A stretch of DNA of 39,012 nucleotides from an uncultured Mycoplasmataceae bacterium (lineage in GTDB: Bacteria > Bacillota_I > Bacilli_A > Mycoplasmatales > Mycoplasmoidaceae), in contig CAMWTZ010000002.1 of NCBI GenBank assembly GCA_947177385.1, forward strand, positions 1 to 39,012, in the 5' to 3' direction. The notes below the pieces were generated by a model. That model worked only from the letters and a program-made list of their open reading frames with translations. It did not search any database and was not told the DNA's origin. Shown here one piece after another: positions 8,990-28,357 of the stretch (position 1 is the stretch's first letter; each line of letters opens with the position of its first letter). Made by a program: the position numbers and the translations under genes.

Positions 8990-9026
8990 TAAAAAATGGA
9001 GATTAAATTTCTCTATTTTTTATTAA
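8986..9026. terminator. Bidirectional terminator hairpin between convergent tyrS and tsaC-rpiB-like genes
   Basis: 16-bp stem ttaataaaaaatggag / ctctattttttattaa (one G:U), 9-nt loop. Confidence 0.75.
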
Positions 9027-9985
9027 TTATTTTCCTCATATTCAACAATAGTATTAACTCTATTTAAATGACGACCACCTTCAAATTTAGTTTCTAAATA
9101 CACATTAATTTGATTTAATATTTGCTCATTAGTAAAAAGATTCAAATCAAAATTAGCAACATGTACATCATCATGCAATTTAATTAAACTTGCTAATTCA
9201 TCGCTATATACAATTCCACTTCTAACAAATTGAGTTTTATTAGCCAAATAATCTCAAATATATGGTTCATGAGAAATAATTAAAGCATCATTATTAGAAA
9301 TATTTTTTATTGTTGAATTAAACTTCTTTTCATTTAATTTTAGAATTTTGATTCTTTTATTTTTAGCTAATTTAGAACTAAAAAAAGAATATTCATTTGG
9401 TTCTACTAATATATAAACAATTCTTGTTTGGACAAAATTTAAATCATTAATTCACGCTTCAATTGCTTCGACATTTGCACCACGACGTAAAATCTCTCAT
9501 TTATCAATATTAACAATTGTAGATGGTTCAGTGCCTATTCCAGGTTCATCAACTATAACTAAATTATAAAAATATTTTGAAACATCAAAAGTGTTATTTG
9601 CTTCTAAAGGATGAGAAATACAATTATGATTGCTAATATTTGCACTACTACAATACAAATAATCAAACTTATCTAAAATATAAAGCAAATGACTTTCATT
9701 TGGTATACGATATGAAATATTTGACTTAATAATTGTTAGTGATCCAGGTCAAAATTTGTCCAAAAATTCTATTTGTTCTTTATTTAAATTAGGTATTACA
9801 TCTTTATTAGAAATAAAACGAATAATTTTTTTATTTGTTGAACGTTGCTTAATTTTATAAATAATATTTTTATCTTTAGCTAATATTCCAATAATTGTAT
9901 CTGTTGGAATAATTACTGCTTTATTATTCATTAATTCAAAAATAATGCTATTAATATCTGAATATTTATATGTTTTAAATGTCAT
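9023..9985 (-). CDS. Fusion: TsaC/Sua5/YrdC domain + RpiB/LacAB-like C-terminal domain (320 aa)
   Basis: Single frame: AVIIPTDTIIGILAKD, FWPGSLTII, YCSSANIS, GTEPSTIVNIDKWEILRRGAN (TsaC) followed by RSGIVYSDELASLIKLHDDVHVANFDLN...FEGGRHLNRVNTI (RpiB C-terminal half). Confidence 0.85.
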
Positions 9986-10823
9986 AGTTTTTATATGCAA
10001 AAATGAAACGATTAATATTATTATAATCTTTAATAATGTCTACTTTAACTTTTGGATCTCAAGATAGCAACATATTTTTAATTTTTTCTTCTTGTCCCAT
10101 ACCTATTTCAAAAGCTAATAAAAATTTTTGATTATTTTTTATATAGTTTGAATAATTAGAAATAATTTCCTCATAAATAAAATATCCATTTTTTTCTGCA
10201 AATAATGCATTTTGAGGATCATATTTTTCAACAAATCCAATATCTTCATCAAAACTAATATATGGTGGATTGCAAGCAATTATGTCAAATTTTTTTTTCA
10301 AATTACTAAATAAATTTGAACATATAACATCTGCTTTTAAATTATATAATTTCAAATTTTTTTTAGAATTTACACATGCATCTTCATTTATATCAACTAA
10401 TGTTAAATTAAGATTATTTTTAAATTTTAGTTTAGCAGAAATTCCAATGACTCCCGTACCACAACACATATCTAAAAAATCTATATCTGAAATAAAATTA
10501 AATTTATTTATATATTTAGACAAATATTCAATTAGCAATTCTGTCTCAACTCTTGGAGAAAATACATTATTATCAACAATAAATTTATTACAACAAAAAT
10601 ATGTACTACCAAAAATTTTAGAAAGAGGTTTTCCTGCTAAATATTCTTTTAATATTAATTCACATTCATTATTTTTTATTGCTTCTAAAGGAAGAATATT
10701 CATAAGATCTGTATAATCATCCAAATCATAAACATGCATTAAAATCCAATTAGAAATCTTCTCATTTTGATTATTTTTAATAAGTGATTGTTTTAATTTA
10801 AATAATAATTCAAAATTTGTCAT
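9975..10823 (-). CDS. prmC: Release factor glutamine methyltransferase PrmC (282 aa)
   Basis: PLSKIFGSTYFCCNKFIVDNNVFSPRVETELLIEYL, DMCCGTGVIGISA, ACNPPYIS; 11-bp overlap with downstream ORF. Confidence 0.95.
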
Positions 10824-14116: not shown

Positions 14117-17100
14117 TTATTTCTTTCATAAATTATTCAAATTAGTTAAACGTGTTTTTAACCAATCTTTTAAATAATTTTTAGCGTCTAATTGACTGAC
14201 AACATTTTTTCAAGTAGCCTCAGGAACAATATCTGCTCCCGCTACAGCATTCCAATATTCTAATTCAGGTGGTGAATAACTAGTAGTTTCCAATTGACTA
14301 TACTTTAAATATTCTTGTCTTGCATACTCACCAATATTTTTTCATTTATTAAAATTAATTTCATAATTTTGACTATATAAAGTTGAACAATCATCTAAAT
14401 ATTTTATTAATTTTTCAAAAACATTATTTGAAATCATTTCTGCCCACTTGTCTTTAATTTTTGTTTGAATTAATTTAGATTTATAAAGTAATACCATTCA
14501 TGGATTTGATGAATTAGCAGCATATAATCCTTTTGGTTGAACAATAAATGTTCCATTTCATGGATATCTTATTCCAAAAGCGCAATCAAAATCTCATGGA
14601 ACCTGCAATTTTAATTTACCATCTCCAAATTGTGATAAATCAACACTCATATAAAAACTTGAATTAGATAAATCTCAATCACAAACAATTTCTTGCAAAA
14701 TTAAAGAAGCTACAACAGAATCGATATCTAAAACTCTAGATATACATTCATCAGTGGTTTTGATATTATTAGATTCAATAATATCTGTTTTATCATTGTT
14801 GAATTCATAATATTTGTTTTCAATTATTGCTTTATAACAAATTCGATAAATATTTTCTAAATAATTTGAAATAAATTTATTTTGCTCATTACTATAGATT
14901 TTACTTTTTATACTATATGAAAGAACACCTAAAGATTGAAAGATATTTTTGTCAGGATTATCTTCTGGTGGTAATTTTGCTTTATTATTATAATTTAAAT
15001 CAAATCTAAATAAAGGTTCTTCACTATCTGCATATGCATCCATTTCTAATAAATAACCAATATCTAAATTTGAAGAATTTAAAATTGGTTTATTAATATT
15101 AACTCGATTAGTAGATACCTCATTTTGTTCACATAACAAATACATCCCTTGATATGTGTTATTAATATAAACTTCAATTTGTCTAAAATCACTTGAATAT
15201 AAACCAAAATCTTTATACAAAAACTGCCCTAAATATAATCCAGTAGCATTGCGTAACATTGAAGGATCACGTCAATCTGCTAATAAAACTCAATCTTTAA
15301 ATTCATTGTTGTAATTTAAATTAAGCATTGATGTTTTTTTATCTAATTTGATTCTATACGGTTTCTTAGGATAAACTGATGTGGAATTACCCCGCACTTT
15401 TATTTTTCCTGATAATGTCGGAGAAACATTATTAGTGTTAGGATCAGTAACTATAAAGTTAGCAGATTGATATTGATTAGTAATATTGTTTGGATCATTA
15501 GTATTGATGCTAATATCAATTCTTGGTAATTGTGTATCTAAATGTGGAGTGTAACTATATGGAATTGGTGATATTGGATTAGTAACAGGTGGAGTTAGTG
15601 ATTTAAAATTAGTCAATGTTAATTTATCATTTTGTGAGTCTATTCCATTAGAAAATACAACATTAAATGATAATGCATCTCGAGAGTGACTTGCTTCTAA
15701 TAATGAATTTGGCTCAATTTGTAGTGAAATTTGTGTCAAATTAAGATTTGATGAATTAAAAAAATAATTTTTATATTTTGACAATCAATTATTAATATTT
15801 TGTTCATTTGCAAAATTATTTTCAACAAATTTAGACATTTCAATGTCTAAATAATTTGAATTAATTAAACTAATATCAATATTATTTTTTAAAGTTGGTA
15901 ATGGGATAACAATTGGGTTGGGTTTAAAATTGGATAAAACTAATTTCCCAGTAGTTGGCAAATTATCGATATTACTAATATTTACATTAAGTTCAATTGT
16001 TGTATTAACAACATTAACATTAGTATTTGGAGATAAAACAATTTCTAATGAATCGTCATTAATATTTTCATTAAAAAGATAAGATTTATGATTTTTTAAT
16101 CATAAATTAATTGAAATTTCATCATTAAAATACTTCTTCTTGAAATCATCAGCTGTAAGTTGTGCATAAGATGAATCAATACTAGATACATCGATATTTG
16201 ATTTTAAAGTTGGTAGATTAATTATTGATCGAAAACCGTTAATTGCTAAATTTAACTCTTCTGATAAATTATTGAATGAAACAACAATTGTTAAGTTGAT
16301 TGAATTATTATTTGAATTAATAGATGGGTTTGTATTAGATTTAATACTAATATTTACACCTGGATATTCACTAGAATCAACAATAATTAAATTTCTATAT
16401 TGTGATAATCAATTATTAATTTTAGTTGGTGTATCTAAATAATTGGTTATAAATTGTTGAGCAGATAATTGAGATAAATTATCAATATTAGAAATATCAA
16501 TACTTGTATTTATGTTTGGTAGTGAACTAGAAAAACCTATTAAATTAAAATTACAATATTCACTAAAATATTTATTTGATATTTTTAATCCAGTGACATT
16601 AATACAACCATTTATAGAATTAAAATTAATTTCTGAAATATTAGAAACATATGAAATTGTTAAATCATCTTGCTGCTCATAATCATCAAATAATAAATGC
16701 TTATAATTTTTAAACCATTCATTAATTTTAGAATCACTACTTCAATAATTAGTGATAAAGTCATCCACTGTTCAATTAACTAAATCGTAGTCAATTTCTT
16801 TTATATCTAATTCATTTATAAATGTTGGTAATGGATCTGGTTTTTTAAATCCAATTAAAATAATTGTTTTATTAGTTGATTGGGAATCATTAGAAACAAT
16901 TAAATCAAGCTGAATTGTGCCATTTAGTATATTAATTTCAATATTTGAAATATTTTTTATTTCAACATGTATATTACTTAAATTTACACTATCCAAAAAT
17001 AAATAACGTTTATTTTGTTGTAATCAATTATTAATATCTGATAAATCACCAAAATATTCTTGTCTAAATTCATCACTAGTTAATGTTGCATAATTAGAAT

Positions 17101-18181
17101 CAATTGATGCAATACTAATTTGCGAATTAATTTCTGGTAATTTGTTAAATATAAAGCCAAATAAATTAATTATTTGATTATTATCACGATATTCATTTTT
17201 TATATTTATTGATAAATCAATTGAACCATCATCTCTCAATACATACTTGTTAAGATAAATAAAAATATTATCTGTATCTTCTGTGTTTGGGAAAAATGAT
17301 GTTTTATTATCTGAAAGTCATTTATTTGCTAAATCAGCAGTTGATAAATATTTTTTAATAAATTCTTGACTAGTAATTTGTGAATAAATAGGATTAATAC
17401 TTGAAATATTTAATGATTTTTTGAGAATAGGTAATTGTTCAATTACAAATCCAGTTAGTTCTAAATATTGAGTAGATGAATTATGATATGAATTAGTAAT
17501 TTCTATTTTTATACTTAAAGACTCATCTTTGTTTTTATTTAGTTCTATTAAATTAATTCATAATTCATTGATTAATTCATCAGATTCAAAAAAATAGATT
17601 TTATTATCATTTAATCATTGATTAATAAATTGAGTATTTTTGAAATACAAATCTATGAATTGATCTAATGTTAGTTTAGAATATTCTCCACTAATTGAGC
17701 TAATATCTATATTAGATTTAACATTTGGAATCATGAAACCTTTTTTAAAATTAGACAATTTTAAATCATAAACTTTATCAAAAGATCTATTTTGATTATT
17801 TTTTTCCAAATATACTTTTAAGATAATTGTTCCATCACTAAAATTAGAATTTATTTCATTGTTATAACTTTTTAATTCAACTAAATTAGAGTCTAAATCC
17901 TTAAGAATGTTTTTTTTGTTATTTTGTAACCAATCATTAGTTGCAAAAATAGAACCAAAATTTCCATTAATATATTGATCAACAGTATAATTAGATGTAT
18001 CAGTATCAACTATATTATTAATATCAATTCCATTACTAAATAATGTATCATAAGGATCAATATTAGAATTGGATGAACATGAAATTAATGCAAAACAAGA
18101 TAATATAGATGATGCACAAAAAAATGCTGCAATAATCTTTAATATATTTTTCTTATTTTTTATTAATTTAGTTAATTTCAT
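14117..18181 (-). CDS. Large surface lipoprotein: tandem about 125-aa repeats + C-terminal CotH kinase-family domain (1354 aa)
   Basis: 18181, 17239, 16996, 15784 and 15259 ORF pieces share one frame; lipobox ALISC; repeated pattern LP.I.S.IDISSI.S.Y..LT...F...YF....IN.WL..NK.YLF; CotH motifs GKIKVRGNSTSVYPKKPYRIKLDKK, CDWDLSNSSFYMSVD...LQVPWDFDCAFG. Confidence 0.85.
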
Positions 18182-21238: not shown

Positions 21239-21313
21239 AATATGTATAATTATAACAATGGAAATTAATTAAATTTTAATGTTAAATTTAAAACAATATT
21301 GGACAATATAATT

Positions 21314-21715
21314 ATGGAAGATAAAAAAAATAAAATTATTTTTATTGGCGGAGACCACACTTCATATGATGAACGCGAACGTTTACAAAAATATCTAACA
21401 GAATTAGGGTATTTAGTTTATGATAAGGGTTCATATAGTAAAGATCCGGCAAATTATGCTGAACATGCAATTAAAGTAGCTAAGGGCGTGCAAGAAAACC
21501 CTAATAGTAATGGGATAGTTGTATGTGGTTCTGGAATTGGAGTAAATATTGCTGCTAATAAAGTAAAAAATATTAAGTCAATTTTAGTATATAGTAAATT
21601 TACAGCTAAAATAGCTCGAGCAAAAAAATATAATGTTATCGCGTTAGGTTCTAGATTTTTAACATATAAAAATTTAGAAAAATATGTAAATATTTTTCTT
21701 GGAATAGAAAATTAA
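21314..21715 (+). CDS. rpiB: Ribose 5-phosphate isomerase B / LacAB family (133 aa from the ATG)
   Basis: IIFIGGDHTSYDERERLQKYL, GIVVCGSGIGVNIAANKVKNIKSILVYSKFTAKIARAKKYNVIALGSRF; lacks the GGRH tail. Confidence 0.9.
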   Translation: MEDKKNKIIFIGGDHTSYDERERLQKYLTELGYLVYDKGSYSKDPANYAEHAIKVAKGVQENPNSNGIVVCGSGIGVNIAANKVKNIKSILVYSKFTAKIARAKKYNVIALGSRFLTYKNLEKYVNIFLGIEN

Positions 21716-21760
21716 TTTAGATATTGTTTAATCAAATTAAATTTTTATAAAGGAAAGAAG

Positions 21761-22227
21761 TTGGTTATAGTTAATATCAATTCATTTAATAAATGTATTG
21801 AAGAATTGAATAAGTTATTCCCAACATTTAATGAAAAGATCAACTTTATAAAAACTTGTAAAGATGATTTAAATTTTATTAATAACAAAAAAATTATTCT
21901 TATCAAAAGTGCAATTAATTTTTAGTTATTAATGTATCTGTTGCTAAAATTCTTAAAAATAACAAGAAATGTAAGTGATGAAGAAATTATTAATTATTTT
22001 AAAGATAATAATTTTATTTTCATTATTTTATCTAACATATCTCACTTTTTTAATTGAAGAAAGTTAATCTAAAACATATTGTTTTAATAGAATCTTTTAG
22101 ATTAGAATCATTGCTTTATTTACCATTATGTTTACAATCTGTAATATTTGTTATTCTAAATTCTAGATATACAAGATTTATTAATAAATCATATAAAAAT
22201 TACAACAATTTAAAAATCCACCATTAA
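21761..22227 (+). pseudogene. Decayed ORF remnant, unidentified
   Basis: SD-like aaaggaaag then TTG ORF (54 codons), followed by coherent peptide stretches in other frames (VSDEEIINYFKDNNFIFIILSN; NLKHIVLIESFRLESLLYLPLCLQSVIFVILNSRYTRFINKSYKNYNNLKIHH*). Confidence 0.45.
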
Positions 22228-22239
22228 TGATGGATTTTT
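22212..22239. terminator. Terminator hairpin between the ORF remnant and tdk
   Basis: aaaaatccacca-ttaa-tgatggattttt. Confidence 0.6.
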
Positions 22240-22252
22240 TAATATATTTACA

Positions 22253-25311: not shown

Positions 25312-27526
<2,215 letters not shown>

Positions 27527-27534
<8 letters not shown>

Positions 27535-28357
27535 AAAAATAATTAAATAAATTAACAAAAATATCTGGTGATATTTCTTGTGCTCTTGTATTTGTTCGAA
27601 TATTTAAAGTAACAAAAGACTCTAAAATTTTATCTTTACTAAAAATTTTCAATAAATTGTTTAATAAAGTTTTGCGACGATTAGAAAAGCATAAACGTAA
27701 AAAATTATTAAATTTACTATTTAAATTATTTAAATAAATATTTTCTTTTCTTTTAATTTCAATAACACTAGATATAACTTTGGGAGCAGGCTTAAAATTA
27801 TTTGGTGAAACATCAAATAATACTTTTGTATTAAAAAATAATTGACTAGACACAGAAAACATATTGTAATGTTTAGATCCAACTTTTGCAGACATTCGTT
27901 GAGCGAATTCTTTTTGAACCATTACAATAGCTAAATTGATTTGCGGATAATTTATTAATTTTAAGACTAATGCTGAAGAAATAGAATATGGTAAATTTGC
28001 AATTATCTTAAATTGTTTTCCTGGATAATTAGATAGAAAAATGTTTCAGTCTAATTTCAGTGCATCATCATTAAATAAAGAAAAATTATTATTGGAAGCA
28101 AACTTTTCTTTTAAATATGAATATAATCTTTTATCTAATTCAATTGCAAATAAGTTAATTTTATGAGAGAGCAATATTCCTGTAATTGCCCCCATTCCTG
28201 GGCCAATTTCTAAAATGCAATCACCATTAATTAAATTAGAAGAATTAACAATTTTTTTTTGAATTTCAGAATTAATAAGAAAATTCTGTCCCATTTTTTT
28301 TGATGCTAAAAATGGTTTATTTTTTAAATGATTATTTAGAGATTGATTAATACTCAT
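27527..28357 (-). CDS. rsmA: 16S rRNA dimethyladenosine transferase KsgA/RsmA (276 aa)
   Basis: KKMGQNFLINSEIQKKIV, DCILEIGPGMGAITGIL, IIANLPYSISSALVLKL, MVQKEFAQRM. Confidence 0.96.

Follow-up and report, generated by a model that had tools for sequence, protein, structure and literature searches.

A candidate heteromeric ribose-5-phosphate isomerase B divided between a stand-alone protein and a TsaC-fused domain in gut Ureaplasma-like bacteria

Described relatives of the two proteins

The closest described systems are the galactose-6-phosphate isomerase LacAB and the homodimeric ribose-5-phosphate isomerase B (RpiB). LacA and LacB of L. rhamnosus (PDB 4LFK-4LFN), encoded in a single operon, are two RpiB-fold subunits with a composite active site at their interface, to which LacA contributes M92, H96, N97, R130, H131 and R134 and LacB contributes D8, H9, I10, R39, Y42, C65, T67, I69 and T73 (PMC3755991). 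LacA or LacB expressed separately shows no activity; mutation of LacB C65 (C65A), D8 or H9 abolishes the activity of LacAB, and LacA H96A lowers it ~25-fold (PMC3755991). LacB is further characterized by a C-terminal helix, alpha7, and by the phosphate-binding Arg39, which replaces Arg113 of the loop after strand 5 in MtRpiB (PMC3755991). In the RpiB homodimer one chain supplies both sides of the pocket, and each dimer has two active sites; the version from M. genitalium (PDB 6MU0), solved with ribulose-5-phosphate, has HD at the site that is typically HN. TsaC and Sua5 (TsaC2) share their N-terminal domain, which in Sua5 is followed by a C-terminal domain of its own.

Here we describe a pair of RpiB-like proteins from an uncultured Mycoplasmataceae bacterium that combines features of these systems. 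Like LacA and LacB, the two have the RpiB fold and the same split of residues (His/Asn/Arg/His/Arg on the LacA side, Asp/His/Tyr/Cys/Thr on the LacB side), with a complex and composite interface site that are predicted in our case. Unlike lacA and lacB, their genes are on opposite strands and separated by ~11 kb, TsaC is joined to the A-type half, and the stand-alone protein is without both alpha7 and the Arg39 equivalent, keeping R110 instead. With the M. genitalium RpiB the pair shares the fold, the catalytic residues and the best family scores (38% identity between 6MU0 and the stand-alone model; HD also in the fused half), but the two sides of the pocket are on separate chains. The fusion has the N-terminal domain of TsaC and Sua5, with an RpiB-like domain where Sua5 has its own. 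We therefore did not file the pair as LacAB, given the absence of Arg39 and alpha7, or as an ordinary RpiB, given that neither chain has a complete site. Among the papers searched, none combined TsaC, RpiB and fusion.

Complementary halves of an RpiB active site

The window, i.e., the whole stretch of 39,012 nucleotides analysed, is contig C2 of a fragmented assembly (563,883 bases in 56 contigs, 85.7% complete) of a genome that uses the Mycoplasmatales-type genetic code, with TGA read as tryptophan. The relevant features are:

9023..9985, minus strand: TsaC-RpiB fusion gene; ATG at 9985 (same Met start in relatives), with a TTG at 10000 that also opens the frame
9446..9985, minus strand: TsaC (threonylcarbamoyl-AMP synthase) domain, PF01300; 49-53% identity to the TsaC of sister species
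9026..9445, minus strand: RpiB-like half, putative A-type subunit; sequence of the N-terminal part degenerate, fold predicted to be kept (AF2, Foldseek)
9167..9175, minus strand: HDD, at the EcRpiB H99-N100 region, kept (alignment)
9059..9082, minus strand: EGGRHLNR, with EcRpiB R133, H134 and R137, kept (alignment)
21314..21715, plus strand: stand-alone RpiB, putative B-type subunit, 133 aa; ATG at 21314, TTG at 21299 possible
21353..21358, plus strand: D14-H15 (EcRpiB D9-H10), kept (alignment)
21524..21526, plus strand: C71, the catalytic cysteine (EcRpiB C66), kept (alignment)
21623..21631, plus strand: KKY replacing the HN (EcRpiB H99-N100) of complete RpiBs, lost (alignment)

In the fusion, a match to PF01300 (E 1.5e-16, 60.9 bits vs a cut-off of 25.1) is followed in a single frame by one to PF02502, which covers roughly profile positions 71-138 (E 1.3e-8, 35.3 bits vs a cut-off of 24.7). 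The more specific models score below their cut-offs: TIGR00057 for the TsaC domain (65.1 vs 123.2), and TIGR00689 (45.4 vs 88.3) and TIGR01120 (31.8 vs 138.65) for the fused half. The stand-alone protein matches PF02502 over about positions 1-124 of 138 (E 7e-31, 107.4 bits vs 24.7) and scores above the cut-off of TIGR00689 (104.2 vs 88.3) and below that of the rpiB equivalog TIGR01120 (90 vs 138.65).

To compare residues, the two proteins were aligned with 23 complete RpiBs, namely 22 from the survey described below and the E. coli RpiB (EcRpiB), in a sequence that agrees with the 1NN4 stretch. Using EcRpiB numbering, we define D9, H10, Y43, C66, S/T68 and R110 as the B-side pocket residues, and H99, N/D100, R133, H134 and R137 as the A-side ones. 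By analogy, we infer from the replacement of MtRpiB Arg113 by LacB Arg39 that the LacB side includes R110. The first-pass annotation had proposed that the stand-alone protein keeps the N-terminal catalytic elements while lacking HN and GGRH..R, and that the TsaC-fused copy keeps HDD and FEGGRHLNRV while lacking the N-terminal elements; the alignment confirms both halves of this picture. The stand-alone protein has all six B-side residues and none of the five A-side ones: it contains the motifs GGDHTSYDE and VVCGSGIGVNIAANK, has KK in place of HN and misses the GGRH..R segment. The fusion has none of the six B-side residues and all five A-side ones, with an Asp at the N100 position: it contains KLHDDV and FEGGRHLNRV and is without the DH and the CGTG loop. 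These sets are the two sides of the LacAB crystal pocket. At the LacB Arg39/R-T-H-Y motif the stand-alone protein has P-A-N-Y, and the D42 position is Asn in every stand-alone copy, as it is in several complete RpiBs of the alignment; the Leishmania RpiB D45N mutant is inactive (PMC4783025).

A conservation threshold of ≥90% of the complete RpiBs defines 26 positions; the pair together keeps 24 of them, and only two are common to both proteins (hypergeometric P ~0.003, by our own arithmetic on these counts). B-side residues are mostly N-terminal and A-side residues C-terminal, so loss of opposite ends could yield part of this pattern. However, H99 and R110, which lie 11 residues apart in a stretch common to both proteins, also sort correctly, and this interleaving led us to reject plain truncation as the cause.

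The AF2 model of the stand-alone chain (mean pLDDT 94.2) has the RpiB fold without the last helix, alpha6, and ends after alpha5; with Foldseek it matches the top RpiB structures at TMq 0.84-0.90 and LacB at 0.89. The model of the fused half has all strands and helices at residues 195-324, and its Foldseek matches include RpiB structures. Its alpha6 is present but poorly placed in the monomer, as would be expected if it packed against a partner chain, although low confidence alone is no proof of this.

Phyletic distribution, gene neighbourhoods and constraint

A PF02502 (LacAB_rpiB) survey across the order (320 genomes, with the window genome as G000) recovered the fusion together with a stand-alone gene in five genomes of the genus (G000, G298, G300, G302 and G303) and a single complete RpiB, with no second match, in five others (G296, G297, G299, G301 and G304); the split pair and the complete RpiB are mutually exclusive within the genus. 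The sister genomes with the fusion are named Candidatus Ureaplasma intestinipullorum and uncultured Ureaplasma spp. In G302 the contig stops within the fusion, after the HN region. A third RpiB-like match in G298 (L094, 1799-2284, plus strand) is below the cut-off and very degenerate, most of its active-site residues being unrecognisable. The split holds to within one residue in each of the five stand-alone proteins and in the four complete fusions, and E-G-G-R-H..R is invariant across the latter four.

The fusion locus has the order prfA-prmC-tsaC-(rpiB half), and prmC-tsaC-rpiB is found in the same slot in G296, G297 and G304. The stand-alone rpiB adjoins tdk in G000, G300, G302 and G303, and the two genes almost abut in G300 and G302. 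In the window they are separated by ~530 bp (21716-22252, plus strand) that resemble a decayed gene in several frames and had no match in the ORFs of the loci retrieved. The stand-alone proteins of G298, G300, G302 and G303 (L093, L095, L096 and L080) have in common a C-terminal tail of ~50 aa (DFSGTNN or DFTGTNN ... SKIMN or SKILN). This tail is missing in the window protein, and a tblastn search for it elsewhere in the window gave chance matches only.

In the close trio G298, G300 and G303, amino acid identity is 70-77% for the fused A-side part and 70-76% for the TsaC part, vs 35-54% for the degenerate N-terminal part of the RpiB-like half. The dN/dS is 0.13-0.29 for the A-side part and 0.19-0.23 for the stand-alone protein. 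Comparisons with G000 give a high dN/dS for the fused half, but on short, saturated segments too diverged for reliable ratios.

Two further architectures were found in relatives. In a related genus, TsaC is fused to RpiB in the same domain order and in one ORF, with no second RpiB copy (G242, G269, G267, G268 and G270; L060, L066, L067, L069 and L070, respectively), and the catalytic residues are complete in the four aligned (G242, G267, G269 and G270). In G226, G227 and G224 (L098, L099 and L100), ORFs of 300-340 aa comprise a LacA-LacB tandem, the A-half of which groups with LacA; as in the window, complementary halves are present in one cell, but they are joined to each other and not to TsaC, and by its sequence such an ORF is a natural single-chain heteromer. 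Apparent TsaC-RpiB fusions in Acidimicrobiia (L129 and L137) were rejected, their ORFs ending after TsaC; the ORF filter applied yielded none for L144. An adjacent LacA/LacB-like pair is the sole PF02502 content, with RpiA absent, in G001, G004-G007, G009, G247, G248, G252, G254, G255, G277 and G310; Rpe was not found in G004-G007, G009 and G277.

The proposed heteromer, its alternatives and its origin

We consider it probable that the stand-alone protein and the TsaC-fused half together make up a single, obligately heteromeric ribose-5-phosphate isomerase B, an RpiB variant that resembles LacAB. The stand-alone chain would supply the Asp/His, the catalytic Cys-Gly-Ser loop, the Tyr and the R110 phosphate ligand, whereas the C-terminal domain of the fusion would supply the ring-opening His, the neighbouring Asn/Asp and the two phosphate-binding Arg residues on alpha6. 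As in LacA/LacB, the heterodimer would have one composite site where the RpiB homodimer has two equivalent ones, and each protein is expected to depend on the other for function. We infer complex formation, activity and ribose-5-phosphate (R5P) as substrate from these comparisons; since R110 (MtRpiB R113) is kept and the LacB Arg39 equivalent is absent, a pentose phosphate is favoured over a hexose phosphate. A heteromeric isomerase had already been advanced as a candidate in the first-pass annotation, and the match to the LacAB pocket, the recurrence in five species and the lack of another Rpi in the assembly lend this reading support. Indeed, a full-length RpiB or RpiA elsewhere, which that annotation had set against its own proposal, was sought in the ~86% complete assembly and none was found: the profile search returned no PF02502 match beyond the stand-alone protein and the fusion, and RpiA was likewise not found at this level of completeness (85.7%). 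Moreover, the four sister genomes have no RpiA and no other, complete RpiB. Rpe, transketolase (Tkt) and PRPP synthase (Prs) are all encoded in the assembly, and R5P-Ru5P interconversion is therefore expected to be needed. Points that weigh against the heteromer are the Asn at D42, the C-terminal tail missing from the window protein, the high dN/dS of the fused half in comparisons with G000, the complete RpiB of G301 alongside a TsaC grouping with that of the window, and the share of the complementarity that follows from the N- and C-terminal placement of the two sides.

The stand-alone protein could instead be active by itself, as a homodimeric isomerase with lower or changed activity, the fused half being a structural appendage of TsaC (e.g., in the role of the Sua5 C-terminal domain), but this appears unlikely. 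The H99N mutation of EcRpiB cuts kcat only 26-fold (cited in PMC3755991 and PMC4783025), and the C. immitis RpiB, in which the His and the majority of the phosphate ligands are missing, may act on a different substrate (PMC3212906); the stand-alone protein, however, misses the alpha6 Arg pair and the His altogether. Foldseek does align the entire fusion with two-domain Sua5/TsaC2, but with an rmsd of 18-21 Å over ~350 columns, and the Sua5 C-terminal Pfam domain is not reported for it; further, the alpha6 Arg pair and the His are exactly what the fused half has retained as its N-terminal part diverges. It is quite improbable that both copies are relics of genome decay, with R5P isomerisation dispensable or its product imported. 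An RpiB match is absent in several genera of the same family (g3, g4), and the window stand-alone gene has lost its tail and is followed by apparently decayed sequence; against this stand the retention of Rpe, Tkt and Prs, the active-site halves kept in five species, the low dN/dS in the close trio and the confident AF2 models.

Least of all do we expect the pair to be a LacAB acting on a hexose phosphate, with the LacA half fused to TsaC. Adjacent LacA/LacB-like pairs are frequent in related genera, and on an unrooted tree the fused half joins LacA (support 82/92), a position that was not rejected. However, the R39 and R-T/S-H-Y motif are absent, and the NCBIfam bit scores favour placing both proteins nearer to RpiB than to LacA/LacB: 126 for RpiB vs 90 for LacB with the stand-alone protein, and 61 for RpiB vs 31 for LacA with the fused half (G298), whereas in the control adjacent pair of G272 LacA/LacB score highest. 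A clade of the stand-alone proteins with the LacB of adjacent pairs was rejected (AU p 0.019), but not once the tandem B-halves were added (p 0.134). Together with the synteny, i.e., the fused half occupying the rpiB slot, the family scores favour descent of this half from RpiB rather than LacA.

The heteromeric RpiB probably originated by duplication of an rpiB beside tsaC, after which the copy beside tdk would have lost its A-side, and the resident copy would have fused to tsaC and lost its B-side. In the TsaC tree, G301 (64% complete, with an unfused TsaC and a separate complete RpiB) is sister to G000 (support 99/96), and the AU test weakly disfavours grouping the fusions in one clade (p 0.048); the fusion may have arisen once and been replaced later in G301, or have occurred twice in parallel. 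This appears to be a natural example of how a homodimeric enzyme becomes an obligate heterodimer via duplication and complementary loss of the halves of a shared active site. The precursor (tsaC-rpiB operon), fused-complete and split-fused states all occur in living relatives, so that the route is directly testable. Annotation of single genes as 'RpiB' would miss the expected mutual dependence of the two copies in these gut Ureaplasma-like bacteria.

The physical link to TsaC suggested by the first-pass annotation is borne out by the presence of both domains in one frame and its conservation in the sisters. The tether is physical, whereas a functional tie to t6A is hypothetical and may be incidental, because the same clade also has a neighbour fusion of a GHMP kinase with gltX; fusion of neighbouring genes may be a general tendency here. 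The latter is a 748-aa ORF in the window (25312-27558, minus strand) combining an IspE-like GHMP-kinase domain with glutamyl-tRNA synthetase, and the same fusion is found in G300 and G302 (746 and 751 aa, respectively). Elsewhere in the window, 14117-18181 (minus strand) encodes a lipoprotein-like protein of 1354 aa that contains repeated segments and, at the C-terminus, a CotH kinase domain.
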